NCBI RefSeq assembly: GCF_030936135.1
Contig: NC_082595.1
Location: forward strand, 113,290,334 to 113,354,333
Source of the DNA: Gavia stellata
Lineage: Eukaryota > Chordata > Aves > Gaviiformes > Gaviidae
Reading direction: 5' to 3'
DNA length: 64,000 bases
Both the position numbers and the translations under genes were made by a program. The stretch's first letter is position 1, and each line of letters starts with the position of its first letter. The notes under the pieces are model-generated. The model had not been told where the DNA came from. It saw only the letters and a list, made by a program, of their open reading frames with translations, and did no database searches. Below, in pieces: positions 8,838 to 30,800 of this stretch.

Positions 8838-9398
8838 CCGGGCGGGTCCCCGCGGGCTCCCGGAGCCGCCACCGCCCCGCTGCGGGCCGCGCCGCCAGCA
8901 CGGAACCGGATCCGGAAGCCGCAGCGCGGCGGCGGCGGCGCAGGGGGATGACGTCACGGGGCAAGGTCATTACCGAAGCGCTCCGCCTGCCACGTGACTG
9001 CTCCGTGGGGACGTGCGGCTCCGCGTCCCGCCGGGGCCCGCGGAAGCGATACGGCTGCGGGGCCCCACGGAGTGGCGAGCGCCCCTGTCCCTGCACAGCC
9101 GCACACGTCCACGCGGGAACAAGAGGTGTCTGGACAGGACGGTGCGGGGTCGGGCGGCCTCGCGGGACCCCCAAACCGCGGGGGTGCCTCGGACGGGGGA
9201 GGTGTGACGGAAGCGGGACGAGTGAGATGATAAAGCACAATCACAGAGCGGTGACGCCCGCACCCGCGTACTGACGGCAGCACACGCGATACCTCCGTAG
9301 CGTACGTCGGGGGATCGGGAAAAGGAGCAGGCACGGCACCCGCAGAGCCGTCTACGCTCCCAACTCAGGGAAAACCAACGCGGATATTTCTAACCAGC
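8838..9398 (-). promoter_or_regulatory. GTF3C2 CpG-island promoter with CRE and E-box
   Basis: The stretch just upstream of the proposed GTF3C2 ATG holds ETS-type GGAAG cores near 8,910, a perfect palindromic CRE (TGACGTCA, 8949-8956) and an E-box CACGTG (8991-8996). No TATA box is evident. These are motif matches only. The rest of the interval up to the first U1 3' box has no gene that I can see. Confidence 0.6.
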
Positions 9399-9407
9399 TC
9401 TGTCTTT
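9399..9407 (-). terminator. snRNA 3' box of U1 copy 1
   Basis: On the minus strand this reads AAAGACAGA, matching the AAARNNAGA core of the vertebrate snRNA 3' box. It starts 14 nt after the U1 3' end, the place expected for Integrator-dependent 3'-end formation. Confidence 0.85.
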
Positions 9408-9420: not shown

Positions 9421-9584
9421 CAGGGGAGAGCGCGAACGCAGTCCCCCACTACCACAAATTATGCAGTCGAGTTTCCCGCATTTGGGGAAATCGCAGGGGT
9501 CAGCACACCCGGAGTGCAGGGGATGAGCCTCGCCCTGGGAAAACCACCTGCATGATCATGGTGTCTCCCCTGCCAGGTAAGTAT
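9421..9584 (-). ncRNA. RNU1: U1 spliceosomal snRNA, copy 1
   Basis: Full-length 164-nt U1 with the 5' end ATACTTACCTG that pairs with 5' splice sites, the Sm site AATTTGTGG, and the 3' terminal stem ending in CCCCTG. It is identical to the copies at 12332 and 18297. Compared with human U1 as I remember it there are nine substitutions and no indels; those at positions 33, 35, 65 and 66 fall in the protein-binding loops of stem-loops I and II. Its own octamer, PSE and 3' box are present with normal spacing, so it looks expressible. Confidence 0.97.
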
Positions 9585-9631
9585 GACGCACAACCGCGAC
9601 CGCACCACACCACGCACCCGCACACACACAC

Positions 9632-9796
9632 ACAACACGGACACCGAACAACAACGCATCCGCCAAACACCACCACTCCGCCTCACGCGTCCCACCATCT
9701 GCCGCCGCGCAGTCCCCACGCAGCCCCGCACACCCGTGGCCGGCGCCTTCGTGGCGCCTTGGGCTCCCGTCATCCCACGCGGCGTCTGATCTGCAT
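9632..9796 (-). promoter_or_regulatory. Promoter of U1 copy 1 (PSE and octamer DSE)
   Basis: The PSE candidate TTCGGTGTCCGTGTTGT (minus strand, 9632-9648) lies at -64 to -48 from the start site, exactly as in the other three copies. The distal element is an octamer variant ATGCAGAT (9789-9796, about -212 to -205) beside a GC/CACC-type box. There is no TATA box, fitting a Pol II snRNA promoter. The sequence between the two elements matches copy 4, not copies 2 and 3. Confidence 0.85.
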
Positions 9797-12114
9797 GGAC
9801 ACGCCCTCACACGCACCGCCCCGCCCCTGCCGGCTCGCAGCGCCTCCGCCGGCCCCGGCGCCATCTCCGTGGCCACGCCCCCTCCCGCAGCGGCCCCGCC
9901 CCTGGCGGCCCCGCCCCGCCCACCCGAGACGCCCCGGCGGGTCCCCCGCCTGCCCGCACCGCCACCGCCACCGGGACCGGCACCGGGACCGCCACCGCCA
10001 CCGGGACCGGCACCGGGGCTTCATCTCTCAGAGCCGAGCGGGACCGCGCTGGAGCCGCAGCGCCGGCAGAGCGCGGCCACGGCGGGGCCAGCGGCGGGAG
10101 GGGACCCGTGGGGCGGTGCCGGGGCCGGGGCGGCCTCTGTGACCGCCCGGGGCCCGGTCCTCTGGCGGGGAGCCGGGGGGGCCCGGCCGTGCCCGGGGCT
10201 GGGTGGCCGGGGGTGGCCGGGGGGCCCGGGTGCGGCTCCGGGACACGGGCTCAGCTCCGCTGACGGCCAGAGCCGCAAAGGGGAAAGCCGGAGCCGCGGC
10301 CCTCAGCCGGGGCAGAGGCCCCGGGCCCGGACGTTGGGCTGGGCCCCGTTAGCCGGGCAGGACCCCACTGGGTGGCACCGGTTTGTACTGGGCGCCCGTA
10401 CGGGTCAACACGATGGCACCTACGAGGCCCGTGGACAAAAGCCTTGGCAGCCCGCTGACGCCCGGTGCCGGGAGCGGGGGGCTCTGGGCGCCGACAGCAG
10501 CACGGCGAGAGCGGACGCCCGCGGGGGAGCCAGCCCACGAGCACGCGGTGCCGTGAAAGCGCCCGTGCGCCCTCCGTGGGGATGGCGAGGGGCTGGTAAA
10601 CGCCGGCACCGGCGGCACCCCAGACCCAGCAGCTCCAGCGATCCGTGCCTGGAACCGCACGGGCCCTGGCGCTCCCTCGGCCAAGGCAAACCCGCCCTCC
10701 AATCCCTCTCCCGCTGTCCGGGCATTGCCGGTCGGGCTCCTAAACCTCGCCCCGCCACAGGCAGGTGCTGGGGCTCTCGGGGTTTTCTCCCCGGTGCCTC
10801 TGGAGCCAACAACGTCCCTGCTCAGGTTGCACACGCCCACCGCCCGATTAAACCGTAACCGAAGAAACAAGTGGCGAACGCCCCACGCACGCTGCTTCCC
10901 CCGCCTGCGTGAGCCACCCTCCTGCCGTGGGAGGGGGCTGGGTGCTGCGGGTGACGCCGTTCCGGCCTCCCGACCGCGGGGACACGAGCCCCGGTGCCCG
11001 CAGACCGGAGCCGCTCTCAGGGCCGTGCCGGCTGCTCGTGGGCTGGAGGCGTGCGGGACAACAGCGCTTGCTGTACGCGTGCAGAGCGAGGTCAGAGAAT
11101 AGAAAGGGCCGTACATAAAATTCGAGGTGAACTTCAGCTACTGCATGAAGTATCCGGAGAAAAGACTTTTGACCAGCGGGGCTGGGTCCCAGGCGTGGGA
11201 GGACGGGTAAGAAAAGTCTTGGGACAGCACCGAGGTCTAGTCGGGCTTCGTAACGCTGGTGGTCGTGTCTGTGAGGGTTCAGGTGACATGACATTGAAGC
11301 GAACCGGGATGTGAGAGGCTGGAACGAGGCCGGGATGGCGCAAGTGGAGGCTGGAGGGCTGACGCCGAGCGCGTCAGGGGATGGGGAGGAAGAGGAGAAG
11401 AGAAGGGGCGGAAGGGCTGGGGCTGACGACCGTAAGTGATTAGGAAGCCCAGCAGCAGGAACGGGCGGCGGGACAGCGGGGCCCCGCAGCGCCGGATCCT
11501 GAGCTCCCAGGGCGTCGGCGGCCCTTCTGCCGTAGCTCTCGACTTTGAGAGAAAGACGGCGCGAGTCTCCGCGCCTCCGCGGGCTGCTGGGGAAGGAAAC
11601 CGGGGAACCCTTCCCAGGCCTCTTCGGGCCTCCGCAGCTAGAAAGGATGAGCCAGCGGGACGCCGGGGCCTCAGCGAGTCGGCAAGGTCGACCGAGCGAG
11701 GGCGCGAGCTATCTGGAAAGCGGGAGCGCAGCACGAGGGAGCCGCCGAGGCTGGGAAAGACCGTTAAGGTCCTCGAGCGCAAGCGTAGAGCCGCCGCCGC
11801 CGCGCGCACCGCTGAGCCGCGTCCCGAAGCGCCACATGGAGGCGCGACGGCAGCGGCCGGAGCCTCCCCGTCCGCCCCCGCGGGAGGCCGACGGCTGCCG
11901 GGCGCCGGGTCCCGGCCCCAGCCCGGCCCCGGGTGCCGCTCCCGGCCGGGCCCAGGAGCCGCGCGGGCGCGGGCGGGGCCGTCCCGGGCGGGGCCGGAGG
12001 GGAGCGGCGGGGCGGGGCCGCGGGGGCGGGGCCCTGCAGACGGCGCCGCTCTGCAGACGGCGCCGCTGCGGGCCGGGCGGCCAGGGGCGGGGCGGTGGGG
12101 AGCGGGGCGTGGCC
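9797..12114. other. GC-rich spacer between divergent U1 copies 1 and 2
   Basis: About 2.3 kb of CpG-rich sequence separates the octamers of the two divergent U1 genes. Long open frames exist, as expected from base composition, but none shows a recognisable domain or a consistent splice pattern. A tandem duplication with core GCAGACGGCGCCGCTCT lies at about 12,035-12,068, just upstream of the copy 2 octamer. Confidence 0.55.
9955..10020. repeat. Minisatellite of two 30-bp-class units
   Basis: Two near-identical units made of CCACCGCCACCGGGACCGG and CACCGGGACCG follow each other in the spacer behind U1 copy 1. Confidence 0.75.
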
Positions 12115-12284
12115 ATGCAGATCGCGCACCGCGCGGGGTGACGGGACAACCACGCGCCGCGCCGCGCCGCGCGGCCACGGGCGTGCGCGAGTGCTACTGG
12201 GCGCTGCGTGGTGGAAGAGTGGGGATCGGGATGTGGGTTCGGCGCGGGCGGGGACGCGGCGTTTGTGTTCGGTGTCCGTGTTGT
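12115..12284 (+). promoter_or_regulatory. Promoter of U1 copy 2 (DSE and PSE)
   Basis: Octamer variant ATGCAGAT at 12115-12122 (-217 to -210), preceded by the GC/CACC box GGGGCGTGGCC. PSE candidate TTCGGTGTCCGTGTTGT at 12268-12284 (-64 to -48). The intervening sequence is almost the same as that of copy 3 and differs from copies 1 and 4. Confidence 0.85.
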
Positions 12285-12331
12285 GTGTGTGTGTGCGGGT
12301 GCGTGGTGTGGTGCGGGCGCGGGTGTGAGTC

Positions 12332-12495
12332 ATACTTACCTGGCAGGGGAGACACCATGATCATGCAGGTGGTTTTCCCAGGGCGAGGCTCATCCCCTGC
12401 ACTCCGGGTGTGCTGACCCCTGCGATTTCCCCAAATGCGGGAAACTCGACTGCATAATTTGTGGTAGTGGGGGACTGCGTTCGCGCTCTCCCCTG
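12332..12495 (+). ncRNA. RNU1: U1 spliceosomal snRNA, copy 2
   Basis: Full-length 164-nt U1, identical to copies 1 and 4. It starts ATACTTACCTGGCAGGGG, has the Sm site AATTTGTGG, and ends in CTCTCCCCTG. Stem-loop II carries loop CCTGCACTCC where human U1 has ATTGCACTCC; stem-loop I carries ATCATGCAG where human has ATCACGAAG. It faces copy 3, so the two genes converge. Confidence 0.97.
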
Positions 12496-12766
12496 GCTCG
12501 GCGGTGACAAAGAGAGAGCAGAAGGAGTTTGTGGGGACTTCTGTGGGGTCCGGTGGGCGGAACGGGGCCGGGGGGTGGTGGTGGGGGTGTCCGGGCGCCT
12601 CTTCCCGACCCGTTCAAGGGCCGCGGGGCGGCGCAGGCAGCCACGCCGGAGCCGTCGCGTCGGCAGCCGGACACGGTGTTCCCCGCGGGGAAGTTCATTG
12701 TTTTGCCCGGCGCTGCCGAGTTCCCATCGCGGTTCGGAACACCACGGACACCCCCGGCTCCTCCGC
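12496..12766 (+). repeat. Duplicated 3' flank of U1 copy 2 (paralogue at 18461-18732)
   Basis: After the U1 end this stretch and 18461-18732 share almost the same sequence, including GGGGTGGTGGTGGGGGTGTC and GGAAGTTCATTG. The match resumes at 13353-13460 against 18728-18840, showing that the LTR at 12767-13352 interrupts one copy. Confidence 0.9.
12509..12517 (+). terminator. snRNA 3' box of U1 copy 2
   Basis: AAAGAGAGA matches AAARNNAGA and starts 14 nt after the U1 3' end. Confidence 0.85.
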
Positions 12767-13352
12767 TGTCGTGGTTTAGTCCCCGCCGGCAACTAAGCCC
12801 CACACAGCCGCTCGCTCACTGCCCCGGTGGGATGGGGGAGAGAACCGGAAGAGTAGAAGTGAGAAAGCTCATGGGCTGAGATAGAGACAGTTCAATAGGT
12901 GAAGCAAAAGCCGCGCTCGCAAGCAAAGCAAAACGAGGAATTCCTTCACCACTTCCCGTCGGCAGGCAGGTGCTCAGCCATCCCCAGGAAAGCAGGGCTC
13001 CGTCACGCGTAACGGTTACTTGGGAAGACAAACGCCATCACTCCGAATGTCCCCCCCTTCCTTCTTCCTCCCCCGGCTTTGTATGCTGAGCATGACGTCA
13101 TATGGTCTGGAATGTCCCTTTGGTCAGTCGGGGTCAGCTGTCCCGGCTGTGTCCCCTCCCAACGCCTTGTGCACCCCCAGCCCGCTCACTGGTGGGGCGG
13201 TGTGAGGAGCAGAAAAGGCTCTGTGTGAGCCCTGCTCGGCAGTAACCAAAACATCCCCGTGCATCAGCACTGTTTCCAGCACAAACCCAAAACGCAGCCC
13301 CACACGAGCTGCTCTGAAGAAAGTCAACTCTCTCCCAGGCAAAACCAGGACG
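12767..13352 (-). mobile_element. Solo LTR of a bird endogenous retrovirus
   Basis: A 586-bp solo LTR in minus orientation, of a widespread bird family whose ends read roughly TGTCCTGGTTTTG and TTAAACCACGACA. It is flanked by a 5-bp direct repeat (TCCGC, 12762-12766 and 13353-13357). The paralogous flank at 18728-18732 has a single TCCGC and no LTR, so the empty site is visible. No internal retroviral region is present. It is a fossil and not a working element. Class (ERVK or ERVL) is not settled from memory. Confidence 0.78.
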
Positions 13353-13520
13353 TCCGCGCATCGCCCGGCCCGACCTCCGCTGCCCGCCCCCTTCCCGCTC
13401 CGCCCGCCCGCGGGGCCGCGGCCGACCGGACCCGCGAACCCGGGACCGGCCCTTCCCCGCCCCACACACTTGAGGAGTGCCGCAGCTATGGGTCCCGCCC
13501 CAAAAAAACCACCAACCAGC

Positions 13521-13529
13521 TCTGTCTTT
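13521..13529 (-). terminator. snRNA 3' box of U1 copy 3
   Basis: On the minus strand this reads AAAGACAGA, starting 14 nt beyond the U1 3' end, as for copy 1. Confidence 0.85.
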
Positions 13530-13542
13530 GGCACCACCGAGC

Positions 13543-13706
13543 CAGGGGAGAGCGCGAACGCAGTCCCCCCCTACCACAAATTATGCAGTCGAGTTTCCCG
13601 CATTTGGGGAAATCGCAGGGGTCAGCACACCCGGAGTGCAGGGGATGAGCCTCGCCCTGGGAAAACCACCTGCATGATCATGGTGTCTCCCCTGCCAGGT
13701 AAGTAT
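13543..13706 (-). ncRNA. RNU1: U1 spliceosomal snRNA, copy 3
   Basis: Full-length 164-nt U1. It differs from the other three copies by one substitution, T to G, in the strand entering stem-loop IV just after the Sm site (GTAGGGGGGG instead of GTAGTGGGGG). The 5' end, Sm site and loop changes are as in the other copies. PSE, octamer and 3' box are all in place. It converges on copy 2, with the solo LTR between them. Confidence 0.96.
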
Positions 13707-13753
13707 GACGCACAACCGCCCCCGCACCACACCACGCACCCGCGCACACACAC

Positions 13754-13923
13754 ACAACACGGACACCGAACACAAACGCCGCGTCCCCGCCCGCGCCGAA
13801 CCCACATCCCGATCCCCACTCTTCCACCACGCAGCGCCCACGTAGCACTCGCGCACGCCCGTGGCCGCGCGTCGCGGCGCGGCGCTGGTTGTCCCGTCAC
13901 CCCGCGCGGTGCTCGATCTGCAT
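13754..13923 (-). promoter_or_regulatory. Promoter of U1 copy 3 (PSE and DSE)
   Basis: PSE candidate TTCGGTGTCCGTGTTGT on the minus strand at 13754-13770 (-64 to -48). Octamer ATGCAGAT at 13916-13923 (about -217 to -210) with the adjacent GC/CACC box. The promoter is nearly the same as that of copy 2. Confidence 0.85.
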
Positions 13924-15603
13924 GGCCACGCCCCGCTCCCCGCGGCCCCGCCCCGCCGCGGGCCCCGCCGACAGCCCGGCCCGGCGGCTCCGGGCGCGGT
14001 TCGGCTGCTCCGGTCCGGCGGCACCGGCAGAGAGACGGGACGTGCGCCGCTGCCGCGGCGCGGCCGCCGTGCCCGGAGCTTCACGGCCGGCGGAGCCGAG
14101 CGGCAGCGCCCGCGGGGCCGAGGAGAGGGCGGCGCGGGGAAGGAGCGTCGCTCCCCGCGCCGCGGGGCCGGGGGGGACGTCCGTCCTGCGGCTCCTGCCC
14201 CGGCTCCGCCGGCACCTCCGGGGCTGGCCGGGACAGCGCGGGGTCAGCCGCTCCGGCCGGCCGTGCCGCCGCCGGGCCCGGGCCCGGGGCCGCTCGGACA
14301 CGTCCCTCGCCCGCCGAGGGAGAGGACTGCTTCCCGCTTCCTCCCCGGGGGCTGCGCCCCTTCCAGGCTCCTCGAAAGCCTCTGCCCTTGACCAGGACGG
14401 CGATCCGGGCACGGGGACGGGACGGGGACGGGTTCGGTGCCCTCCTGCAGGACCCCCCCGCCCTGGACCGAAGCGCTCGAGGCGGCCGTGATGGGGTGCT
14501 CCGGTGGGGTGGGGTCGGGGCAGGGGAAGGGGCTGAGACGACACCCGGACCCCCCCGGCCATGTGCAGCTCTCCCCACCGCCGGCACACAGCTCTGGGGG
14601 CGGCCGGCACAGCCGTCCCGCTCCCGCACCCCGCGGGGCCCACCCCAGCAGGGAGGGTGGCGGCTGCTCTGCGGGGTTGCTTTGCTCCAGAGGTCTCTTC
14701 TGCGCCCATCGCCGCTTATTTCCCTATTCCCAACGTCAATCCGGAGCGGAGGAGAGCAAGGGAGAGCTCTAGCGAAGCCACCAAGCCAACGCCCACGCCA
14801 GTGAAGTGTCGGTGCATCTCAAGACGCAGCTGATCGCGTGCCCGGCTCAGCCGGGATGGAGTCACCTTTCGGCACAGCAGCCCCGGCGGTGCTGCGCTCT
14901 GCCCTGCACGTAGCTGGCACAGGGCTGGTGACGCCCCGCGCTTCGGCGGCTGCTGAGCGGTGCCGGCACCGCACCAGGGCATCCTCTGCATCCCCGGGCA
15001 GCGGCTGGGGTGGGCAAGGGGCTGGAGGGGACCCGGCCGGGACAGCCGACCCCAGGGGTGTGGCACACCGTGTGCTGTCCCGCTCAGGAATAACCGGGTA
15101 GGGTAGGGTAGGGTTAGGGAGTTTTTATAGCACCCCTCGAGGCGAATTAAACACACATTTGTGCTTAAACATAAAAGGAAAATTTAATGAACAACGCATT
15201 GGGCAGAGCCCTACTGCAACACGTGGTTCTACATGGAGTCTGCAAAGATGTGTCACAAGCAGATTCCTTATATCCACGTGCACCAGCACCCATCCCGAGA
15301 GTGACTGCACGGGGCACCTCAGCCCGGCCGTGGGTCCATCCCCCAGCCCAGCTCTGCTGCCCAAGGGTGGCCCCTGAGTGCTCCCTTTCCAGGATGGCTA
15401 CAAGACAGTGCTGAGGCTGTTTCTTATCTCATCACCGAGGGAAACTTCACTCCCTTGCAAGGAGTCCTTCTGTCTCTGGCACTCCTGCTTCCAACCACTC
15501 CAAACCCTTCTTGTACCTGGGTCGTCTTGCCCTCCATGCCAGATCATTCCTCGGTCACAAATGACAACTGCTGAGCAGTTACAATTAGAATTTCACCTTT
15601 AGT
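13924..15603. other. GC-rich spacer, no gene recognised
   Basis: About 1.7 kb between the copy 3 promoter and the CR1. The left half is CpG-rich with long open frames that show no domain and are rejected as compositional. The right half (15,120-15,600) is less GC-rich and contains nothing I can name. Confidence 0.5.
15091..15117 (+). repeat. Short TAGGG-type simple repeat
   Basis: GGGTAGGGTAGGGTAGGGTTAGGG: three TAGGG-like units and a single TTAGGG. It is too short and irregular to be called an interstitial telomere array. Confidence 0.6.
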
Positions 15604-17640
15604 AGGATAGGATAGGATGGGGCAGGGCAGGGCAGGGCAGGGCAGGGTAGGGTAGGGTAGTTCAGCTGGAAGGGACCTACAATGATCACCTGGTCCACCT
15701 GCCTGACCACTTCAGGGCTGACCACAAGTTAAAGCACGGTATTATGGGCATTGTCCAAATGCCTCTTAAACCCTGGCAGGCTTGGGGCATCGACCGTCTC
15801 TCCAGGAGGCCTGTTCCAGGGTTTGACCGCCCTCTCGGTAAAGAGATGCTTCCTCATGTCCGGTCTGAACCTCCCCTGGCACAGCTTCGAACCATTCCCA
15901 CACGCGCTGTCCCTGGATCCCCGGGAGAAGAGCTCAGCACCTCCCTCTCCACGTCCCCTCCTCAGGAAGCTGCAGAGAGCAATGAGGTTGCCCCTCGGCC
16001 TCCTTCTCTCCAAGCCCAGAGTCCTCAGCTGCTCCGCAGAGGACATGCCTTCCAGCCCTGTCACCAGCTCTGTTGCCCTCCTCTGGAGGCATTCGAGGAC
16101 CTTCACATCCTTCCTAAATTGTGGGGCCCAGAACCGCGCACAGGACTCGAGGTGAGGCCGCACCAAGGGCAAATACAGCGGGAGAATCCCCTCTCTTGAC
16201 CGGCTGGTCGTGCTGTGTTTGACGCACCCCAGGATGGGCTTTGCCCCCTCGGCTGCCAGGGCTCCCTGCTGACTCCTACGGAGCCTGCTGCCGACCAGCA
16301 CCCCCAGGTCCCTTTCTGCAGGGCTGCTCTCCAGCCACTCCTTCCCAGTTTGGACTTGTGGCCGGTGTTACTCCCTGCCAGGTGCCGAATCCGGCATTTG
16401 GTCTTGTGCAACGTCATGCCGTTGATGATTGCCCAGTGCTCCAACCTATCTAGATCCCTCTGCAAAGCCTCTTGTCCCTCAAGAGAGTCAACAGCACCTC
16501 CCAGTTTGGTACCGTCGGCAAGCTTGCCAATGGGGCATTCCAGTCCCGCATCCAGATCGTTGATAATATACTGAACAGCACTGGCCCTAGGATGGAGCCC
16601 TGAGGCACGCTGCTGCTGCCCGGTCGCCAGCCAGATGTAGCCCCGTTCACTGCAGCCCTTTGAGCCCTGCCCTCCAGCCGGTTCTTCACCCAGCGCCCCG
16701 TCAACCTGCTCGTCCCACAACTGGCCGACTTGTCCGGAAGGATGCTGTGAGGGACAGCACCAAAAGCCTTACTGAAATCCAGAAACCCCACATCCACCGC
16801 CTTCCCTTCATCCACTGAGCGGGTGACCTTATCGTGGAAGGATATCACATTAGTTAAACGGGACTTTCCCTTCATGACCCCATGTTGACTGTGCATCTTT
16901 AGATGCCTTTCAACAGCAGCCAGGATGACCTTCTCCATCGTTTTTCCAGGCGCTGAGGTCAGACTCACAGGTCTGTAGTTTCCTGGGTCTTCCCTCAGGC
17001 CCTTCTTGTCACCTGGAATAACCCTGGCTTCCAGTCAGCAGGGACCTGCCCAGAGTCCCAAGACCTTTGGTAGGCGATCGAGAGGGGTCCTGCCCTAACA
17101 TCCGCCAGCTCCTTCGGCACCCGGGGGGTGAATCCCCTCGGGCCCCGCGGACTTACGGACACGCAGCCGATACAGGCGGTCCCGGACAATTTCAGTCCCC
17201 GCAAACGGAAAGTCACCGCTCCCGCAGCCCCGGTCCTCCGACTCCGAGGACCGGGCAGGCCAAGGTCTGCCGGGATTCTTAAAGACTGAGGCGCAAAAAG
17301 CATCGAAAGCCTCCGCCCTTTCTGCGTCCCTATTTGTCAGAGGTCCACCCTCAACGAGCGTCGGTCCAGTGTTTCCCTTAGACCTCCTCTTGCTGTGACC
17401 GTGCTTGAAGAAGCCTTTCTTGCCCGACGCGGCACCGGGCAGCGTCACCTCCGGCTGAGCTGTGGCCTTCTCCGTTGTCTCCCTACACGTGCGGAGCACG
17501 GCTCCGTGACCCCGACCTCGCCTCCGGAGAGGGCGCCGCGTCCTCCTCCTCCTCCTCCTCCTCCTCCCGAGCTCCGCGCGGAGGTCCCGGGTGGCCCAGC
17601 TGGTCTCCCGCTTGCCTGGGGACAGCCCGGGGTGCGGCCC
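15604..17640 (-). mobile_element. CR1 LINE, 5'-truncated, about 2 kb
   Basis: Minus-strand CR1. From its 3' end (left): an altered pentamer tail (CCCTA/CCCTGCCC, 15604-15660), the typical CR1 3' UTR, then reverse-transcriptase coding remnants such as FLDFSKAFGAVPHSIL and SVPQGSILGPVLF (16450-16968), and the pre-RT stretch RKSAGPEGIHPP with ASVFKNPG and TSWATRDL out to about 17,600. The endonuclease region is absent. Several frame breaks make it inactive. The right edge is approximate because a GGA-type simple repeat (17541-17568) has expanded inside it. Confidence 0.9.
17541..17568. repeat. (TCC)n microsatellite within the CR1
   Basis: About nine TCC triplets on the plus strand. On the CR1 strand they give an Arg-rich run in what was coding sequence. 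Confidence 0.85.
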
Positions 17641-18080
17641 CGAGCCCTTCTCCGCGCACGGCGGGGGCCGGGGGGGCACCGTCCCGCCGGCTGCGGGGGC
17701 CCTTGGCACCGGGACCCGTCGGCGGCGGCCCCGCCGCCGGGACTGCGCAGAGCTGCTCGTCACGGCTTCGGCGGGAGGGGGGTGGGCTCTGCGGCGGCGC
17801 CGTTCCGGCCTCCGGCCGCGGTGGCACGAGCCCCGGTGCCCGCGGAGCCCCGGTGCCCGCGGAGCGGAGCGGAGCGGAGCGGCTCTGGGTCCGTGCCGGC
17901 TGCTGGCGGGAGGGCGCGGGGCAGCAGCGCCCGGCAGCAGCGCGGCGGGAGCGAAGGCGCTGCCCGTTAGTGACCGTCGCCGGTGCCGGAGACGGAGCGG
18001 AGCCCCCGCCCCGCCGCGCCGGGGCCGGCGGAGGCGCTGCGAGCCGGCAGGGGCGGTGCGGGGCGTTTGGGGGCGTGTCC

Positions 18081-18249
18081 ATGCAGATCAGACGCCGCGC
18101 GGGATGACGGGAGCCCAAGGCGCCACGACGACGCCGGCCACGGGTGTGCGCGGGGGAGTGCGTGGGGCTTCGTGGCCGCAGATGGTGGGGCGCGTGAGGC
18201 GGAGTGGTGGTGTTTGGCGCGTGGCGTTGTTGTTCGGTGTCCGTGTTGT
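18081..18249 (+). promoter_or_regulatory. Promoter of U1 copy 4 (DSE and PSE)
   Basis: Octamer ATGCAGAT at 18081-18088 (-216 to -209) and PSE candidate TTCGGTGTCCGTGTTGT at 18233-18249 (-64 to -48). The intervening sequence is of the copy 1 type (for example GGCGCCACGA, CAGATGGTGGG and GGCGGAGTGGTGGTGTTTGG), not the copy 2/3 type. Confidence 0.85.
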
Positions 18250-18296
18250 ATGTGGGTGTGTGGGTGCGTGGTGTGGTGCGGGGGCGGGTGTGCGTC

Positions 18297-18460
18297 ATAC
18301 TTACCTGGCAGGGGAGACACCATGATCATGCAGGTGGTTTTCCCAGGGCGAGGCTCATCCCCTGCACTCCGGGTGTGCTGACCCCTGCGATTTCCCCAAA
18401 TGCGGGAAACTCGACTGCATAATTTGTGGTAGTGGGGGACTGCGTTCGCGCTCTCCCCTG
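18297..18460 (+). ncRNA. RNU1: U1 spliceosomal snRNA, copy 4
   Basis: Full-length 164-nt U1, identical to copies 1 and 2 over its whole length. It combines a copy 1-type promoter with a copy 2-type 3' flank. It converges on the U1 remnant at 18969-18991, the same arrangement as copies 2 and 3. Confidence 0.97.
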
Positions 18461-18732
18461 GCTCGGTGGTGCCAAAGACAGAGCTTAAGTGGTGTGTGGG
18501 GATCTCTTTAGGGTCCGGTGGGCGGAACTGGGCCGGGGGGTGGTGGTGGGGGTGTCCAAACGCCTCTTCCCGACCCGTTCAAGGGCGGCAGGGCGGGCGC
18601 AGGCAGCCACGCCAGAGCCGTCGCGTCGGCAGCCGGACACGGTGTTCCCCGCGGGGAAGTTCATTGCTTTGCCCGGCGCTGCCGAGTTCCCATCGCGGTT
18701 CGGAACACCACGGACACCCCCGGCTCCTCCGC
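18461..18732 (+). repeat. Duplicated 3' flank of U1 copy 4 (paralogue at 12496-12766)
   Basis: Near-identical to the flank of copy 2. It carries the uninterrupted TCCGC (18728-18732), the empty-site state of the LTR insertion. Confidence 0.9.
18474..18482 (+). terminator. snRNA 3' box of U1 copy 4
   Basis: AAAGACAGA, starting 14 nt after the U1 end. Confidence 0.85.
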
Positions 18733-18968
18733 GCATCGCCCGGCCCGGACTCCGCTGCCCGCCCCCTTCCCGCTCCGCCCGCCGGCGAGGCCGCGGCGGA
18801 TCATGCCCGGGGTCCCGGGACCGGCCCTTCCCCACTTACCGCCTCTCATCGTGCCCACCGGGGGGAACCGGGCCTCGCGCCGCCGGCCCGAGCCACCCCG
18901 CGGCCGGCTCGGCCCCGGGCCCCGCCCCGGCACCAACAGCCCCCACCACACACCAGCTCTGTCTTTGG

Positions 18969-18991
18969 TGTCTCCCCTGCCAGGTAATTAT
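18969..18991 (-). pseudogene. U1 remnant: first 23 nt joined to the 3' box
   Basis: On the minus strand this reads ATAATTACCTGGCAGGGGAG and three more bases, the 5' end of U1 with one change in the splice-site-pairing segment. It then runs directly into CCAAAGACAGAG, the 3' flank and 3' box (18958-18966) shared with copies 1 and 3. About 141 nt of U1 body plus the short spacer is missing. TGG occurs at both deletion ends, suggesting a microhomology-mediated deletion. An octamer-like GCTGCAT beside a GC/CACC box survives near 19,183, but no copy of the PSE is recognisable. Confidence 0.88.
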
Positions 18992-20180: not shown

Positions 20181-20196
20181 CTATTGTGGGGCCTGG

Positions 20197-20202: not shown

Positions 20203-20224
20203 ACGGTCCGTGCAGCTGCCCCTA

Positions 20225-23200
20225 CTACTGATCGACGTTCTTGACACGCAGGACGACAGGCACTGAGGTGCAGGGGATCATGCCCAAGTCCGTGATGACC
20301 AGATCCACCAGGTCAGGCGGCGTCACATCATAGACCAGGTTGAGGAGGCGCAAGGACTTGTTCTCTGCCCAGCCACCCAGCTGGGCCTGGCCCTTCCGGA
20401 ACACGATCAGATCATCGGGGTCATCTGTGGAGAGAGGAGCAGCTGGCAGGATCAGGGGGAGGGACAGCACCTCTCCATCCTGCCCTGCTGCCTGCCAGGC
20501 CCAACAGCCACCCTTCCTGCGAGTGGTGGCCCCTTGGCCAGGAAGGGGAACGGCAGGCAGATCAGTCTGTCCTGGCTAGCAGCAGGAAGAGGGAGCAGGT
20601 TCCAGGTGGGAGGAAAGGGACAGAAGCCTTACCCAGCTCGTTGGAGACAAAAGAGTCCGTCTGCACTCGCTCGCAGAACTTGTAGGTCTCACAGCACACC
20701 AGGACAGGCACATTGTAGGCCTTGGAGACCAGCGCTATCTGGGATGTCCCCACACGGGACATGACAGAGCCGTTGGCCAGGAGCGCATGGGCTCCCAGCA
20801 GCACTTTGGATACCTGTCAGGGAAGCGCAGGGATCTGTTAGCACCTTTTATCATGCTGCAGCCTCCCCTGTGCCCGCCCCTGCCCTCAGCATAGCCCCGC
20901 TCTGCTCCTCACCTCAGGCAGCACGTAAGAAATGGCATTGATCATCACATAGGTGCAGTGAATGCCCTTACGCACCAGCCGGCGCAGTGTCTCCCGGCCT
21001 TCCAGCCGCGGCCGGCTGTCCACCACGATCACACGGAAGGCGCGGCCCTTCTTCACGTGAGCGTCACACAGCGTGCGGTTCACGAGGGAAGAGCTGATGG
21101 ACACCAGTTAGGAGGCTGTCCTGTCCTGCCAGACCAGGCTCTCACCTGGCACACGTGGCTGCCCCAGCCGCCCCGTGCTGACACTGTGCGCTGCCAGCAC
21201 CGCCCAGAAATGCAGCCCAGTGCCAGGAGACTTTCCTTGGGCTGGCTCCAGTGTGGGACTCATCAGGTGCTGGCCAGGCGGGAGGTCTCCTAAGCATTAG
21301 CATGGGGTCTCGCCCAGCGGACAGCCCTGACAAGCGCCCGATGGCAGGGGCTGGCTGCCAGCAGCTGCAGCAGAGCAGGTACCAGCTGCCATGGCAGGTC
21401 CCTGGGCACATCCAGCTCAAACAGAGCAATGTCTCTCTTACTCAGGGTAGGAGTTGGGCTCCCACTGAAACCCTGATGGGCTAGTGCTGCCTAGAGACAA
21501 GTCCAGGCAGAGCTGACGTCCACCCTCGCTGTTACAAGTGCTGCCCCTTCCAGACACCCTCCTGCTATGCTCGCTTCCAGGGGCCCCTCGCCCTGTCTTT
21601 GCACAGAGAATCACTCCCTGGGAAAAGTGATGTCTCAGCCCTCTCTGGAAGCAGCACTGACCTCCACCCGTCCATGACCACAGTGAGGGACTACCCCTCC
21701 AAACCCTTGCCAAGCTTCCCTCTCGTAATGCTCCAGGCCTGCACTGGCCTCCTGCCCCTGCTCCTTCCTCTGCCCGTTACCCAGAGGCACATCACATCTG
21801 GACTCTGTTTTGCCACAGCAGTCTCTTGCTCCTTTTCCCACCTCTACTTTCTGGGACACAGTCCCTCGAAGGAAGAACAAGCTTCCATATTTTTGCTTCC
21901 CGACATTTGAGTTTGCTGCAGTTTGTTTAAAATGCCAGTAAACAGCCACGGCTGCTCTGTAAGTGCCTTGTACTGAAGAAGTGGCAAATCTGTGTTTCTT
22001 GAAACACCTAACTCCGAGCACATGCAAACAGAGGACAGTGCTGAGCCCTGAACAGGAACAGCAGTCTCACAGAGAAGCCTTTGGTACTGGCTTCGCTGAC
22101 GGCAATAGCTTTAGGCTTCTGTCAGGCACTTCTCGGCCAGCCAAGGCGTTGCCCACTGCTGTAACACTATGGGCCGGCAGGTCTGGGAGTCTGGGTTAGT
22201 CGAAATCACAGGCAAGGGCAAACTCGGGCATTCACAAGCTGAGCTTGAGGCGCTAACACAACTACGTTAATCAGTATAGGCTGGTATAAGGCTACTTGAT
22301 CAGACCCTCCTGTTTGTTCCTCTAGTAAGTCCAAGGGCTCCCGTGCTCCAGGATCTAGCCTGCCCCAGTGTGCGGAGAAATTGGAAACAGCATCAGCAGG
22401 ACACAGCCCTCCCCAGCGGGGCCCTCCAGGGATGCCTGCTCACAGCCAGGCCTGCCAACACTGTCTGCTACACTCCGCAGACGTGGTTTACCATTCCCCT
22501 TGGCAGCTGCCAGGCAGAAAGTGCTCTGTCACCACCTTGTGATGCAAGCTCATCAGCCTACCCATCCCCCAGGACAGGACAAGAGTCCTAATGAACTCTC
22601 TTTTTCCAAAGTTCTAACAATACTCCCACATCCAGTTAGCAAATGCTGATCCCAGGGCCATGCTCTGGTCTGTCCTGCCACTCTCATACATCCACTGTTC
22701 TGTCCTGCCCCATTGGTCATAAACTTCTCCCCACCACAGCCAAGTTCTGGCTGGCACGCCCTGACTACCCCCTCCCTGCTTTTTATATTTCTAGTTGCTG
22801 GACCCAGAGCCACAACCCCTTCCTCCCCCTTGGGCAATGCTGACTTTCCCACCCTTGAAAAACTGCTTTTGAACAGTTTCCTGTGCTCACTCAGCTGCTC
22901 CATTTCCTTTTTCCACCCGCTGGCCTGGCTGCCCTGGCTCTCCTCTTACCATCCATACACCAGGATCACATCGTTGTCATTTATCTTCTCAAAGGCAGAC
23001 CTTGAAATGGCTTCAGCTGCCAAAAGAATCTTCTCCCGCAGATATTTGTCGATAGTGTCCTGCAGCTTCTCTTTCGCCTGGGGAGACAGTGCCATCACGT
23101 ACAGCACGGCCTTGCCACACAGCACTCTATTGTCCCTTACAGCCTGGCAGGACTGCGGGCTCAGCTCTGCCTGCAAGCAGAGAGCCCTCCCCTGCTCCCA

Positions 23201-26200
23201 ACCACCCTGTTTGCTGAATGACACCTTCCCCTGGGACAGGAGCTCTGCAGGATGCACAGGGCCACTCCTGTCCCAGCAGAAGCCTCCCAGCAGACCACGG
23301 TGCCTCACCACGCGTTCAAACTGCCATCAGGCCCTCCCAGCTCTTCCCATTATCTCCCCCGCACCTCCTGGGTCAGTCACTCTGGTGATCCCATGGAGAT
23401 TTTACTGCTCAGAATCTCCAACCTGACTCCTCTCAGCCCACTAGCCATGCTGCCTCAGGGGCCCTCCTGATGTATACCACCACTCTGCCCCTTGCTCCAC
23501 AGCCAACAGGCTCCTGTGGAGCTTTTTGCATGGGAGGTAGCTGAGGACTGAAAAAACCACATTCTTCTTCCTCTGTGACTTTACTGATGTTGTCAAACAA
23601 TGCTGACAGGCAGTCCTGGGGGGCAAGGCCAGCTCATGGTGCTCAGATGCTGTGGCCTTTGTGGCCTTCCTGCGGTGCACAGCACCAGCTGGACCAGCCT
23701 GCAAGTCCTCCAGCCGCTCCGGAGTCACTTCTTGATGCAGGTGCAATGCTGGTTGCTGGCCAGGCCTGTGGTGCAGTGCTGCGTTCACTGAGACCACGTG
23801 CAGCTGCTGCAGCTTCTCCCATTTTACGTCCCTGCTCCTGACAGGCTCCAGTCCTACCAGCCCAGTGACACTAACAGTCCAGCATTTGCTGCAGCGCACC
23901 CCAGCCCCTTCGGGTCCTGCTGGGCTGCGCGTGCTGGCAGAGGGGGAGCAGATCTGGCCACAGTCCCCACTCAGGTCGTGGCTGGCAACACTGATGGCCA
24001 ACAGTCTTCTAGCTTCTCTGCAGCGCTACTCCCATTCTGCATCCTACCACCTCTCCCTGCTTAGCCTGCGCCAGGGCTGTCCCTCCACTCTGGTGCCTGC
24101 AGCCAGAGGGCTGGAGCCTGCTGCTCGCGTGAGGCCACCCACCTCCTCCTCTCTCAGGGTGTCGGGTAGGCAGGAAATTTCCTTCTTGAGGAACTTAATG
24201 GCATTGCCCATGCTGGCTGAGAGGGGCCGGCACTGGTTCAGGAAGCTGCAGAGAGGAAACGGTCTTAGTTCCAGAGCAGCCTGAAGGGCAGGGACAGGAA
24301 GAGGGAGGGTGCAGTTGGGCTGGGGATAGTGGGCAGGGAGGCAGAACCCAGAGCCCCAGGAAAGTCAGCCCAAGTTTGGGTGGACACCAACTCGGAGAGG
24401 CAACCGATGGACCACACTCAGCAGAGCTTCAGTCCCTCTGCTCCGGCATCAGGAGCCCTCACCTGATGTGTGGCTTCAGCTTGGCCACCAGGTCCCGCGA
24501 CAGCTCCTCATTGGGGGGAGTTGAGTAATCCCGGATCAGCTGAGACAAGAAGGAAGAGAGCGTGAGCTCAGGGCACCTGCCCCTTCTGGCCAGGCACACG
24601 GCACACGACCACCTTCACTCAGGAGGCTGCAGACCAGGCACAGGCGTGTACGGCACAGCCTGACACGCTTTCACAGGGGGAGCAAAGGGGTGCTCCAGGA
24701 ACTCAGATCTGCAGTGTCAGCGCCAGAACAGGATACTAGCAGGGCCCAGCCCTGAACACAGTCAGAAGGAAGAGGCTGAAGATGACTGAGCACAGATACA
24801 GCGCCAGTAGTCAGGGAACAGGAAGGGATGCCTGCATCTAGCGCAACACCCTTGCTGCCTGGCGGGCATGGGTAGCTGCTCGCATACCTGTTTGAAGACT
24901 TCCAGCAGGGCGATGCAGCGGGCATTGGAGCCGTTGATGATGCCCTGGGAGTACTGGAGGCCAAGGCGCACCACGGCCGGGTGAATTACCGTGGAGGGGA
25001 TGCTACAGGGACAAACGTGAGAGAGCTGTCAGCACTGGCCCTCTACAGCCCAGGAACAACCAACCCATTGCCGGGCCCCCAGCCAAACAACCTGAGGGGC
25101 AGCCCAAGAAGGGAGCTGTCAGTCTGGGCCTGCTTGCTCTGTGTCCTGAGGAGTCAGGCTAGCACCACAGCCCCTTCTCCTGTGGCCCTGCATTGCCCGA
25201 GGGCAGCTCTCCGCACCCCACAGGCAGGACATCTGGCTGTCCCTGCCACTGCTCCTCAAAGCAAGCGAAGGAGTCCCCCTCCACCCCATCAAACCTATCC
25301 CACACGCAAGACCAGGACACGCCTTCACTAGGGCCATTTTGCAGCCAGGCCAGCCGAAGCAGAGCCAAATGATTGCCAGGGGCCTGGGCTGGGGAGGCCA
25401 TGTACCTCATCTGCTGTGTCAGTGGCTTCTTCCGGCTGTACTGGTGCAAGTGGGAGAACAGGTTGACCTTGGTACCGTAGTCCTGCCTCAGAGGTACCTG
25501 CAGCCGAACAGTGTTGATGATGGCTTACCCAAGGCCGCCATACAGCCCTGCTCACTCCAGCACCACCAGTCACACCCAGCACTCACTTGTGGCACATCAG
25601 AGAACAGGCCCCTAGTCCCACCGTGCACACAGCCTGACCCCACCACACACACTGCAGCGTGGCTGCTCTATAGCATGCAGCCCATTACCCAGCCCTCCTC
25701 CTACCTGCTGCCGCTCCAGCTTCTTGGCCAGTTTCCTCTGGGCAGCAGGGTCATCCACCTGCACGTGCTCCGGCAGCCGCTTTACCACTGTGAGGATAGC
25801 GGGGAGGGCAGTGTGAGGCGGTACTGCCCTGGTGCAGCCCCCAGCCCAGCCACACTGCCCCAAGACTCAGGAAACGCACGGCAGGGCAGCGCGCAGGGCA
25901 CCCCGGAAGGATCAGACAGGCAGCCCCTGCAGGCGTCCGCCCCAGCCCCCTCCCTCCCCGCTCACCCACCCACCCTCTGGTGACGACAGCTTTACCGGAC
26001 TGAGGCTCAGTGGGGGTCAGCCTGGGCTTGACTGCTGTGGCTGCCTGACTCAGCTCTGCTTTCTTGGCCTGCTTCTGGGCCCGCTCAGCCTCCTGCTTGG
26101 CCCGGCGCTCTGCTCGCAGCTCAGCTTTGCTCTTGCCCCCTGCGGGCTTCTCACCATCATTGGGGGCATCGGCCAAGGCTGGGAGGGACGTGGGGTGAGC

Positions 26201-27187
26201 AGCCACTGCAAGAGACAGAAGGGGGAAACCTGTGCCCAGGCTCCGTCACCAGGAGATGTAGCCCAGTATGTGCGGCAGCCCGCGGCAGGGAGACCCTCCT
26301 CTGTGCAAGGCTCTGCCTTTGGAGGGGCAGGTGGGACTAAGCCCCACATTCTCCAGCACCCTGCCACCCCTGCGCAGACAACCTCCAGGCCAGCCCCATA
26401 TTCAGGTGGGGAGGGGACTGGCCTCTCTAGATCTCAGTCCCCACAAGATGCGGGCACTCGAGGTGCCAGGACTCGGGTGCAGAGAGGTGGGACACCCCGG
26501 AGGTGCCACCGCAGCCTCCCCTAACTGGAGGATGCTCCTGGCTCAGGTTCCAGCCTGAGGGGTGTTCCCAGCCGGGCAGAGCACCGGGGCCTCGCCACGG
26601 GGCTGCCCCTGTTCGGGGTGCTGGGGATGTCTGCCGCGGGGCTCTCCAGGCTCGGGGGGGGCTGCCTCGGGGGAAAGGAGGTCCTCACCCCGGGGCTGCC
26701 CTGGGTCGGAGGGCGCCCACAGCTCCGGGGGCTCGGCCGCCGGCCCCTTCTCGCTCCTCTTCTTCTTCTTCTGCTGCTTCTTCTCCTTCCGCAGCTGCAG
26801 CTTCTCCTCCCGGGAGAGCTCCGGGGCCTGTGGGCACAGACCATCAGGCAGCCCCCGGCCCCCACGCCGGCCCCCGGCCCAGCCCGCAGCCCCACGCCGG
26901 CCCCCGGCCCTGCTCACCTGCGGTCCCGCCGGCACCGGCGCGGCTGCTTCGGGGCCCGCACCTGGAACGAGGAGAGGCGTGAGAGGGGCCGGGAGCAGGG
27001 CCGGGCCCGGCCGGCTCTGGGGACGGGGAGAGGCCGGTGCGGGGAGGCCGGGTGGGTGCCGAGCAGCGGGGCGGGAGCAGGACTCCAGCCGGTGCCGCAG
27101 GGCGGGTCCCGTCGCCCACCGGGGGCCCGTCCCGTCCCGTCCCGGCGCGGCCCCGTACTCACCGCCCGGCGCGGCCCGCTCCGCCAT
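20225..27187 (-). CDS. EIF2B4: EIF2B4, translation initiation factor eIF2B delta subunit
   Basis: Regulatory subunit of eIF2B, the GDP-GTP exchange factor for eIF2. Together with alpha and beta it forms the core that senses phosphorylated eIF2 in the integrated stress response. Exons: 27187-27163, 26961-26918, 26827-26599, 26205-25996, 25787-25705, 25497-25406, 25002-24888, 24539-24463, 24245-24143, 23077-22950, 21093-20913, 20813-20633, 20424-20225; about 555 aa against 523 in human. Landmarks are the Lys-rich [109 protein letters not shown] and [20 protein letters not shown]. The C-terminal Rossmann-like domain looks intact. The donor at 26598 is weak and was chosen for phase, so the end of exon 3 is uncertain. 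After NEL the segment [18 protein letters not shown] differs strongly from human. Confidence 0.95.
21094..22949. other. Largest EIF2B4 intron, no other gene seen
   Basis: A 1.9-kb intron less GC-rich than its surroundings. I see no CR1, RNA gene or conserved protein stretch in it. Confidence 0.55.
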
Positions 27188-27870: not shown

Positions 27871-30800
27871 ATGCACTTCTCCATCCCCGAGACCGAGACC
27901 CGCGCTGGCGACGGCGGCGCCGCCTACGTGGTGAGCGGGGCCGGAGCGGAGCTGTCCCGCGGAGCGGAGCGGGGCGGGGCGGCCCCGCGGCCCGGTTCTG
28001 GCGGGCCCCGCAGCGGGCCCGCTCCGGGTCCGGGTCCGGGTCCGGGTCCGAGTCCGCCGGCCCGGGGCCGGTGCCGGCCCCGCCCCGCCCGCCCGGTGGG
28101 GCCGGGCGGGCCCGCAGCCCCGGCGGCCGTCGCGGGCGGGCCTGGGCGGGCCGGGGCCGGGGCCGCCCGCCCGCCATCCCCCGCCGGCGCCCCGCTCCCG
28201 GGCCGGGTGGCCGTCGGGCTGCGCCGCGGGGCCGTGCCCTGCGGCCCAGGCTGGCCCCGGTGGGCTGAGGGAGCTCCCGGGGTGCGGCCCTGCGGGCGCC
28301 GCTCGGTGCGTGCCCGGCCCCTGCCCGGCCCCGGGGGGCGGCCGAGCCGGTGGGCCGCGGGGGGCGGGCAGGCAGCGGGCGGGGGCCCGGTCCTGGGGGC
28401 CTGGCTCGTTCTGGCCCCCAGCCTCTCCGTCCCTCCCGGCTTCCTGTTTTGCTCGGCGCGCCGTGAACGCCCTCCCGCTTGGCAGCCCCGCCAGGAGGGG
28501 GTCCCCAGGGCGGGCGGGGGGATGCTGCTGCAGGGTGGTGGCCCGAGGGCTCCCCGGGTGCCGAGAGCCCCTTCCCCGGCGGGGCCGGCGGCAGCGCTGC
28601 CCGCAGAGCAGGGCCTCACTGCGTGGAGGTGGCGGTGCGGCTGCAGGCGCTGGGTGCAGGCCTGTGCCCCCCTCTGCTCCCGGCTTGGGGCGAGGGCAGG
28701 CAGGTCTGGGCTGCGTGGCCCCTTCGGCTTCGGCCCTGCGGGTAGCTCTGCGCTCCAGGCAGCCCGCTCCTCCACGCCTGCTGCCCTGGGGACCCCTCGC
28801 CTGCGCCCTTTGCCGAGACCCCTCTCTGGGGGGTCTCCCTGGTCCTCTCAGCAGCACAAGGCGGTGTGTCAGGGACACAGATGGCAGTCGTGAGCTGCGG
28901 GAAGGACTGTGAAGGGACGTGGTGATCCACAGGCAGCTGTGGTTGCGCAAGGGCAGGAGTCGCAACTGCCCAAGGTGTCTTCGGCCCTCTGCCTTCCCCT
29001 GCACTTTGCCCTCAGTCGCTGTGATGGCTCTTTGGGTGGGGAAGACCTTGTTCCCAGTGTCAGAGGAGAGCTCGTTTGCAGCACTGGGTCTGGGCAGGAG
29101 CGGGTGACCCTGCAGAGAGCCCTGCAAGCACAGGCCCCCGTGCTGATGCTGGGCGGGGCGTGAGTGCTGCCTGGGCCACCCAGCATCCGTTGTGGTCTCC
29201 TGGGCCCACTGCTGGGACCCTGAGCAACGGGGCTGTCACCTTTCGGTTGGAAGACGGTGTGAGAAGCCAGTGTGAGATCCAGTGCGTGCAGGGCCAGCGT
29301 GGCCTGGACAGGTGCCTCCACTGACCCTAGGCAGCCCCAGCTTTCCGGGGCACGAGGACACCTGGAGCTTCCAGTGAGCAAAACAGCCACAGGAGGTATC
29401 TGCCTGGGCTGCGATCGCTGGCGGGAGGCGTCTCTCCAGCCCCCGTGGTGCGGTCCTCCCGCCCTCCCAAACACCATTGTGGGGATGGCAGGACCTGCTC
29501 TGGCACAGAGGGGACAGCGCTGTCCCCTGGTAGGGCGCTACCTGCGGCGAGGTGCCCGGGAGCTGGGGCGTGGAGTTGCTGGGCCCCATGCGCTGTGCAG
29601 CCGTAGCTGTGCTCTGCCTGTGGTGTCAGCGGGGTGCTGAACCAGGGTGGGGATGCAGGGCAGAGGGGGCACCGGGGGCAGCAGCCAGGGGCCAGCTCTG
29701 TGGTGGTATAGAAAAAGTTAGTCGAAACTTTGCACTATCATGTGTAATTTCTGTAACAGTGGGATCCCTTGCACCAGGACCAGTTGCCTACCCGTCTCTG
29801 TAGGGTTCCTCCCAAGCTGTGGAGCAGGCGAGCCCCAGCTGGGCTGGTGTCTGCTGGGGTAGAGCTGTCTCAGAGGGGTTCCAGCCTCTCCCCTGGCCTC
29901 GGGTGCGTGGGGTGGGGGCATGTCCTACTGGGCTCTCTGCAGCAACCCTTACGCTTTCAAGCAACCAGTGCCCCAGTAGTGTTGGGGTTTGTTGTGGCAC
30001 CCCCAGGGCGGGCAGGCAGCACACGAGGAAGGGATCCCCTGCCCTGTGGCGAGAGCTGGCTGTGGCCATGCACTCCAGGAGGCAGTGGAGCGAGCCCAGG
30101 CCCGCAGCCTTTGGTGGTGAGGATGTCCCCGCCACGCAGCTCTCCGCGGCTGGACACCAGGCTCCTGCTCCGCTGGCCTGAGCGCAGCCCGTGTCGCTGT
30201 GCTCGCTCATCTGAATGTGTCATGGGGCTTGCAGAATGGAGAGCAGCCGCTGGCAGTGTCCTCTCTGTGCTGCAGGGAGTGGGGAGGCGTGTCCTTGCCC
30301 GCTTCCTTGGGGACATCTGTGTCCACGGGGCTGCAGCTTGGCTCTGTGCTCTCCCCGTGGCTGGGCGACTGCAGGGTTATGCCTTCCTGGTGTCCATCAG
30401 ACACATCCCTTGGATGCACTTATACTTCCTGAGCAGTTTTGATGATATCCACTGGGCTGCAGGTCTGCACCGACACTGATGCATCTTCAGAGGAGCAGCA
30501 CACGGAAACCTTTGAGTGCTGTTATTGTACTTATTTTTGCAAGTCCTGGGTGTTTGATCTGTCCTCACTTGCTAATGCATAGCGCTTGACTGCTGACAGC
30601 AGCCCCTCCTGGTCCTGGCTGTGCTGGGGGCTGTGGCTGTGTCTGCCTGGAGCTGCTTGTTGCATGTGTTGGCCTCCATGGGCAGCCTTGGGGCGTGTGG
30701 GCCCTGCCCCTCTCCAGGCTGCTGGGGATGCTGCCCCCGAGAGCTGGAGAGGGCCCCGGCCCTGCAAGGGAAGCCCTGCAGAGCTGTGTGCTCCGGGGCA

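Follow-up and report, generated by a model that had tools for sequence, protein, structure and literature searches.

Four genes for the U1 small nuclear RNA (snRNA) lie close together in the genome of Gavia stellata, and their two protein-binding loops differ from those of human U1. Do they form a variant class beside an ordinary U1, or are they the U1 on which this bird chiefly depends? The genes occupy part of a 64,000-nucleotide (nt) stretch of contig NC_082595.1 (RefSeq assembly GCF_030936135.1; positions 113,290,334 to 113,354,333), hereafter the window. A preliminary description, made from the letters of the window alone, had treated them as a variant class with reduced U1A and altered U1-70K binding, provided that the main U1 of the species keeps the U1A site ATTGCAC. 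Our analysis supports this interpretation in part. In the reading that we consider probable from sequence comparison, CCUGCAC and AUCAUGCAG are the loops of the main U1, and bird U1 particles carry weak or no U1A.

U1 genes in the window

A covariance-model scan with Rfam RF00003 identified four full-length U1 genes (copies A to D, Table 1), which score 163.6-164.1 bits against a gathering cut-off of 69.5 and align to model positions 1-166. In comparison with human U1 (164 nt), all four copies share T22C, C33T, A35C, T60C, A65C, T66C, A77G, T107C and T157C. Copies A, B and D are identical, and copy C has a tenth change, T137G. Nucleotides 1-21, with the sequence that pairs with 5' splice sites, and the Sm site (nt 125-133) are the same as in human U1 in all four. 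The observations of the preliminary description were thereby confirmed: nine shared substitutions, two changed sites in the loop of stem-loop I (C33T and A35C), replacement of ATTGCAC by CCTGCAC in stem-loop II together with A77G in its stem, and an intact 5' end and Sm site.

None of the nine changes breaks a canonical pair. Seven fall at unpaired positions, while U60-G79 becomes C-G and A77-U62 becomes G-U; among 100,000 random nine-change sets (7 transitions, 2 transversions), zero broken pairs occurred in 3.0%. The Rfam consensus gives positions 34-37 and AUUGCAC in upper case (strongly conserved) and position 33 in lower case, so A35, A65 and U66 stand out as unusual changes. U1 positions 65 and 66 correspond to A1 and U2 of the U1A site. 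AUUGCAC is typical of U1 yet not demanded by RF00003, and the window genes score far above the model cut-off.

The altered letters of stem-loop II also permit other pairings. In the predicted hairpin ensemble the canonical fold accounts for 76% and shifted C-G registers for 14% and 8%, so the alternative C-G closing suggested earlier is predicted to occur as a minority, and a shortened loop as the dominant fold was rejected. Folding of the full-length free RNA was set aside as uninformative, because human U1, too, departs from its canonical structure when folded by computer; unconstrained U1 structure predictions have been reported as inconsistent in the accessible text of PMC10584915.

U1 genes across the genome

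A DNA search of the same genome (1.32 Gb, 1185 contigs; window at C2:113290334-113354333) returned 36 U1 matches, comprising 12 cluster copies, one uncounted fragment (L020) and 23 dispersed copies, which we divided by divergence into 9 young and 14 old. The 12 cluster copies, at 99-100% identity, all belong to one 195-kb cluster in three groups (C2:113.114-113.309 Mb), near the end of the 113.7-Mb contig C2. Every one of the 12 carries GATCATGCAGG and CCTGCAC (C35 and CCUGCAC in the RNA), and the AUUGCAC site of stem-loop II is absent from all of them. Eight are 100% identical over 164 nt, and nine possess all three outside elements (the octamer-like element, the -60 block and the 3' box described below). 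Among the others, L007 has a weaker -60 block (18/22) and an altered 3' box, L010 is without a 3' box, and L012, which lacks its first 15 nt, adjoins a run of N upstream. L020 is a fragment at this N gap inside the cluster, and its row in the read-out of elements and ATTGCAC repeats L012. L012 and L020 (C2:113116652-113117065) represent a U1 copy split by or beside the N run, where the cluster is incompletely assembled.

ATTGCAC was found in none of the 36 matches, one old copy (L034) being deleted over the loop, and no second intact U1 class appeared among them, although assembly gaps remain. The U1 of the window is consequently the only intact class found. The 23 dispersed copies look like retropseudogenes, as judged from their sequence: the 3' box is present in none, the -60 block matches at 7-13 of 22 positions versus 18-22 of 22 in the 11 readable cluster copies, and the octamer-like element is missing from 22. 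The remaining copy, L036, has such a string within 135 nt upstream; for L031-L036 the upstream flank that was read spans 68-135 nt only. A- or T-rich stretches end several of the 13 dispersed copies whose flanks were inspected. The window copies differ in having their outside elements and 99-100% mutual identity.

The cluster therefore looks like the ordinary, main U1 genes of Gavia stellata rather than a variant class, and the other U1 loci with ATTGCAC on which the preliminary description had made its classification depend were searched for and did not appear. This renders the change at the U1A site more striking than had been assumed, since it affects what is apparently the main U1. It is improbable that the cluster encodes a variant or developmental class whose majority AUUGCAC partner is missing from the assembly. 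Variant U1 genes have been described in mouse, frog, fly, moth and sea urchin, with developmental regulation known in mouse, frog, fly and others (PMC5159530, PMC4291461, as far as their accessible text goes), and one cluster copy does adjoin Ns; against this stand the 0/36 matches with ATTGCAC and the young pseudogenes, all nine of which carry C35 and C66. Retropseudogenes presumably sample abundant RNAs, so an abundant AUUGCAC U1 would be expected to be represented among them.

Still less credible, and in our judgement very improbable, is a decaying pseudogene cluster under relaxed selection. The truncated fifth copy (Table 1), T137G in copy C and the degraded outside elements of L007 and L010 would fit such decay, but eight cluster copies agree at every one of 164 nt although their flanks diverge, no canonical pair is broken, and no better candidate for the essential U1 exists among the 36 matches.

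Order of the loop changes

The dispersed copies record earlier states of the loops. Mean Kimura two-parameter (K2P) distance at non-CpG sites is 0.038 in the young set and 0.232 in the old set. Young copies have C35 (9/9), C66 (9/9), C65 (8/9, one T) and frequently G33 (6/9). Nine old copies are readable without gaps at 65-66, and these show C65 in seven, T65 in two, A65 in none and T66 in all nine; L028, L031, L033, L034 and L036 were excluded here for gaps or truncation. With the excluded copies included, alignment to the window U1 gives C65 in 10/12 and T65 in 2, and T66 in 9/11, A66 in 1 and C66 in 1, whereas alignment to human U1 gives C65 in 10/13, T65 in 2 and A65 in 1, and T66 in 13/13; this lone A65 comes from L033, where a gap produces it. 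At position 35 the old copies have A in 9/13, G in 2 and C in 2, and at position 33 G in 8/13.

At the level of sequence, these copies show the order of change in the expressed U1: A65 was lost first, T66C and A35C came later, and G33T came last. Loop states in L013-L019 and L021-L036 are ordered by age, with G33 common before the present T33; because G33 is common in the earlier copies, T33 is not simply inherited from an early vertebrate. With a bird substitution rate near 2e-9 per site per year, the age of the old set is very roughly 100 million years and that of the young set near 20, the rate being the weak point of this dating. The pseudogenes suggest that the loss of at least A65 is old. 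ATTGCAC is present in zebrafish U1 genes (accessible text of PMC3706591), so the bird loop is derived. CCCCTGC at nt 63-69, which includes C65 and C66, matches nt 86-92 of the same gene, and T66C beside the older C65 could, as an idea only, stem from local template copying; a single double event for C65 and C66 fits poorly with the stepwise changes seen in the pseudogenes.

Predicted effect on U1A binding

In human U1A, changing A1 to G costs 5.0 kcal/mol, A1 to C is similar (about 5), and pyrimidine changes cost 1.6-4 kcal/mol (PMC2203988, accessible text). Bird U1A and U1-70K were read from the named bird rows among the best 120 matches listed, which belong to birds other than the source species. 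The 30 U1A rows are mostly from passerines; the two Dromaius rows are isoforms encoded by a single gene, Ammospiza contributes four rows from two species, and the Eudyptes row (P0119) is marked as contamination by its own name. U1A is present in the birds seen, and loss of U1A in birds was rejected on these rows. Arg52, which contacts A1, is kept in 30/30, and the Grus row and both Dromaius rows equal human U1A at all 21 contact positions compared. The residue that reads A1 thus appears to be retained in bird U1A while A1 itself is lost from U1. The earlier prediction of reduced U1A binding gains weight from the cost of the A1-to-C change in the human protein (PMC2203988) and from the constancy of Arg52, and it remains a prediction from sequence.

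It is unlikely, though a good deal less so than the two alternatives above, that bird U1A or another protein of the U1A/U2B'' family still binds the changed loop, with co-adaptation and a normal small nuclear ribonucleoprotein (snRNP). The rest of the site, UGCAC at loop positions 3-7, is intact, the birds seen do possess U1A, and K50R occurs in loop 3 of U1A in 25 of the 30 rows, though not in those of Grus, Dromaius and Eudyptes. Two parrot rows also have S46A and M51L, the Eudyptes row has S48I and L49M, and one Ammospiza row has K50H. K50R, S46A and M51L could influence the way in which bird U1A engages the altered loop. Against such co-adaptation, Arg52 does not vary, the Grus and Dromaius rows match human U1A at every contact compared, and the penalty for A1 to C in human U1A is large (PMC2203988).

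Predicted effect on U1-70K binding

The stem-loop I loop reads AUCAUGCAG in this bird's U1, set against AUCAUGAAG. For the human complex, the accessible text of PMC4383343 describes a sandwiched C33 and G34, a stack of A35-G37, a flipped-out G28 and an A29-A36 pair; A35 is described there only as stacking. The 11 U1-70K contact residues named in that text are unchanged in 20/20 bird rows, and changed U1-70K contacts in birds were rejected on this basis. H133Y and S137N occur in all 20 rows, S137N next to the contact K138. In the free stem-loop I with C35, pairing is predicted between G28 and C35 (0.57) and between U27 and A36 (0.55), as compared with none and 0.04 with A35, and in this model such pairing might compete with U1-70K. 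Altered U1-70K binding, the other prediction of the preliminary description, is less certain than reduced U1A binding, A35 being described only as stacking in the human complex.

Proposed explanation

Under the reading that we favor, the cluster of intact U1 genes, the only one found in the genome, would supply the main U1 snRNA. The changed RNA would work as an ordinary U1, base-pairing to 5' splice sites and binding the Sm proteins, U1-70K and U1C, with near-normal U1-70K binding and expression of the cluster both presumed. Stem-loop II would no longer fit U1A, leaving most U1 particles with weak or no U1A, and the loop changes would have built up stepwise in the expressed U1. U1A would probably be kept for other duties, for example control of its own mRNA; U1A is known to control its own pre-mRNA (PMC2203988, accessible text). 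In human cells a U1 that is unable to bind U1A can nevertheless assemble and restore splicing, and U1-70K was needed for severe exon defects (PMC4822034, accessible text).

Several points weigh against this explanation. The U1A-less human U1 mutants were co-transfected in larger amounts for equal levels (PMC4822034, accessible text), and by analogy losing U1A may cost U1 RNA level. K50R in most bird U1A rows might adjust specificity, and the expected behavior of bird U1A with CCUGCAC is drawn from human U1A energies and residue comparison. U1 genes were read from one bird genome and the U1A rows from other species, and an intact AUUGCAC gene could lie in an assembly gap (Ns beside L012; 1185 contigs). 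The old copy L033, whose own letters are CTTTGCAC, can be gapped to show A65 against human U1. Finally, the conservation of U1A alongside a degraded site on U1 calls for an explanation of its own.

Comparison with known U1 systems

The window genes agree with vertebrate U1 (RF00003) in length (164 nt), 5' splice-site pairing sequence, Sm site, four stem-loops and flanking elements, and differ in having AUCAUGCAG (A35C) and CCUGCAC, where zebrafish U1 holds AUUGCAC (PMC3706591, accessible text). The genes of mouse U1b and other developmental U1 variants are likewise multicopy and altered at positions in the RNA body (PMC5159530, PMC4291461, accessible text); those coexist with another U1 class, whereas the changed bird form is the only intact class found. 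Human U1-like variant (vU1) genes also depart from canonical human U1, but steady-state levels of U1 and vU1 differ 100- to 1000-fold (PMC5159530, accessible text), and no other U1 class was found in the bird. The closest parallel in loop II is the engineered ExSpeU1 U1Am, in which U1A is removed by a loop change and the particle still assembles (PMC4822034, accessible text). That RNA was built for human cells; the bird case is natural, and its loss of U1A is only predicted.

AUUGCAC and U1A are a textbook pair of an RNA recognition motif (RRM) and its RNA, and descriptions of vertebrate U1 count U1A among its standing components. A literature search that mostly left older subscription papers outside its coverage returned no paper on a bird U1 without AUUGCAC and none giving a bird U1 sequence. 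Chicken U1 was reportedly sequenced decades ago, and for this reason, together with the coverage of older papers, novelty is not shown. Searching paper full text for the U1 loop letters gave 0 papers, and searches of viral contig and genome contig collections with U1 patterns gave 0 matches each. A survey of 48 bird genomes found the major spliceosomal RNAs well represented and has no word on loop variants in its accessible text (PMC4378963); none of the queried terms is present in PMC4290089, on missing bird genes.

Flanking elements and neighboring genes

The 164-nt body is 99-100% identical among the window copies; flank identity is 35-70% in the most divergent pairs and stretches and above 90% in some pairs. 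In each copy the octamer-like ATGCAGAT lies at -212 to -217, the -60 block is identical, and AAAGANAGA stands at +178. We take these to be the distal sequence element (DSE), proximal sequence element (PSE) and 3' box, the external elements of snRNA genes transcribed by RNA polymerase II; their positions were measured, and we infer the PSE label from the position of the -60 block. Orientation alternates among the four genes, and upstream flanks group A with D and B with C, while downstream flanks group B with D. This mosaic suggests inverted duplication and gene conversion. The truncated fifth copy has an upstream remnant to about 19200, ATGCAGCT upstream and an altered 5' end, ATAATTACC.

Table 1. 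Features located in the window, with positions counted from its first nucleotide.
Feature	Position	Strand	Basis
U1 snRNA gene copy A, C35 and CCTGCAC	9421..9584	-	RF00003, 164.1 bits; nine changes vs human
U1 snRNA gene copy B, identical to A	12332..12495	+	RF00003, 164.1 bits
U1 snRNA gene copy C, nine changes plus T137G	13543..13706	-	RF00003, 163.6 bits
U1 snRNA gene copy D, identical to A	18297..18460	+	RF00003, 164.1 bits
Stem-loop I loop, copy A (nt 28-37, GATCATGCAG)	9548..9557	-	RF00003 alignment and human comparison
Stem-loop I loop, copy B	12359..12368	+	RF00003 alignment and human comparison
Stem-loop I loop, copy C	13670..13679	-	RF00003 alignment and human comparison
Stem-loop I loop, copy D	18324..18333	+	RF00003 alignment and human comparison
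Stem-loop II loop, copy A (nt 65-74, CCTGCACTCC)	9511..9520	-	RF00003 alignment and human comparison
Stem-loop II loop, copy B	12396..12405	+	RF00003 alignment and human comparison
Stem-loop II loop, copy C	13633..13642	-	RF00003 alignment and human comparison
Stem-loop II loop, copy D	18361..18370	+	RF00003 alignment and human comparison
Octamer-like distal element ATGCAGAT, copy A (-212)	9789..9796	-	Flank comparison
Octamer-like distal element, copy B (-217)	12115..12122	+	Flank comparison
Octamer-like distal element, copy C (-217)	13916..13923	-	Flank comparison
Octamer-like distal element, copy D (-216)	18081..18088	+	Flank comparison
Conserved -60 block GTGTCCGTGTTGT, copy A, PSE position	9632..9644	-	Flank comparison
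Conserved -60 block, copy B	12272..12284	+	Flank comparison
Conserved -60 block, copy C	13754..13766	-	Flank comparison
Conserved -60 block, copy D	18237..18249	+	Flank comparison
3'-box-like AAAGACAGA, copy A	9399..9407	-	Flank comparison
3'-box-like AAAGAGAGA, copy B	12509..12517	+	Flank comparison
3'-box-like AAAGACAGA, copy C	13521..13529	-	Flank comparison
3'-box-like AAAGACAGA, copy D	18474..18482	+	Flank comparison
Truncated fifth U1 copy, pseudogene: first ~26 nt, then 3'-box sequence	18966..18991	-	blastn, 26 nt at 96%; 5' end with 1 mismatch
EIF2B4 exons (neighbor)	20228..26851	-	tblastn with human protein, Pfam IF-2B, bird homologues
SNX17 exons (neighbor)	27871..36121	+	tblastn with human protein, Pfam PX and FERM lobes

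The EIF2B4 protein joined from the window exons is matched best by proteins of birds. Among the best 50 matches listed, 2 differences in 386 core residues separate it from each of the Aramus guarauna and Morphnus guianensis sequences, and 6-10 from those of passerines, which places the source among birds, most probably as a non-passerine member of Neoaves. Residue 416 of the joined query is Phe in the window and Leu in the best 50 bird rows listed, and is possibly a species marker; human EIF2B4 also has Phe there. What we take to be a CR1-like repeat lies at about 15.6-17.2 kb in the window, and a 300-nt direct repeat occurs three times within positions 37386-38636 (62% and 73% against the copy used as reference), the starts of two copies being only 84 nt apart. 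Six-frame Pfam scans covered about 1-9002 and 19001-33993; no family was found over about 1-9002, nor in a Pfam scan of 10 long open frames.

Significance

If the explanation proposed here is correct, a vertebrate whose main U1 lacks the U1A site would show that a whole animal can do without U1A on its U1, and the other roles of U1A would become testable. The pseudogene series also documents the succession of steps by which an essential RNA altered the loops that its proteins bind. Only tentatively, and with more doubt than confidence, do we extend this further: in birds, or a large part of them, the bulk U1 snRNP may have lacked a high-affinity U1A site for about a hundred million years, with U1A strongly conserved for work outside U1. 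Under this further reading, birds would amount to an experiment of nature in which U1A and U1 are uncoupled.

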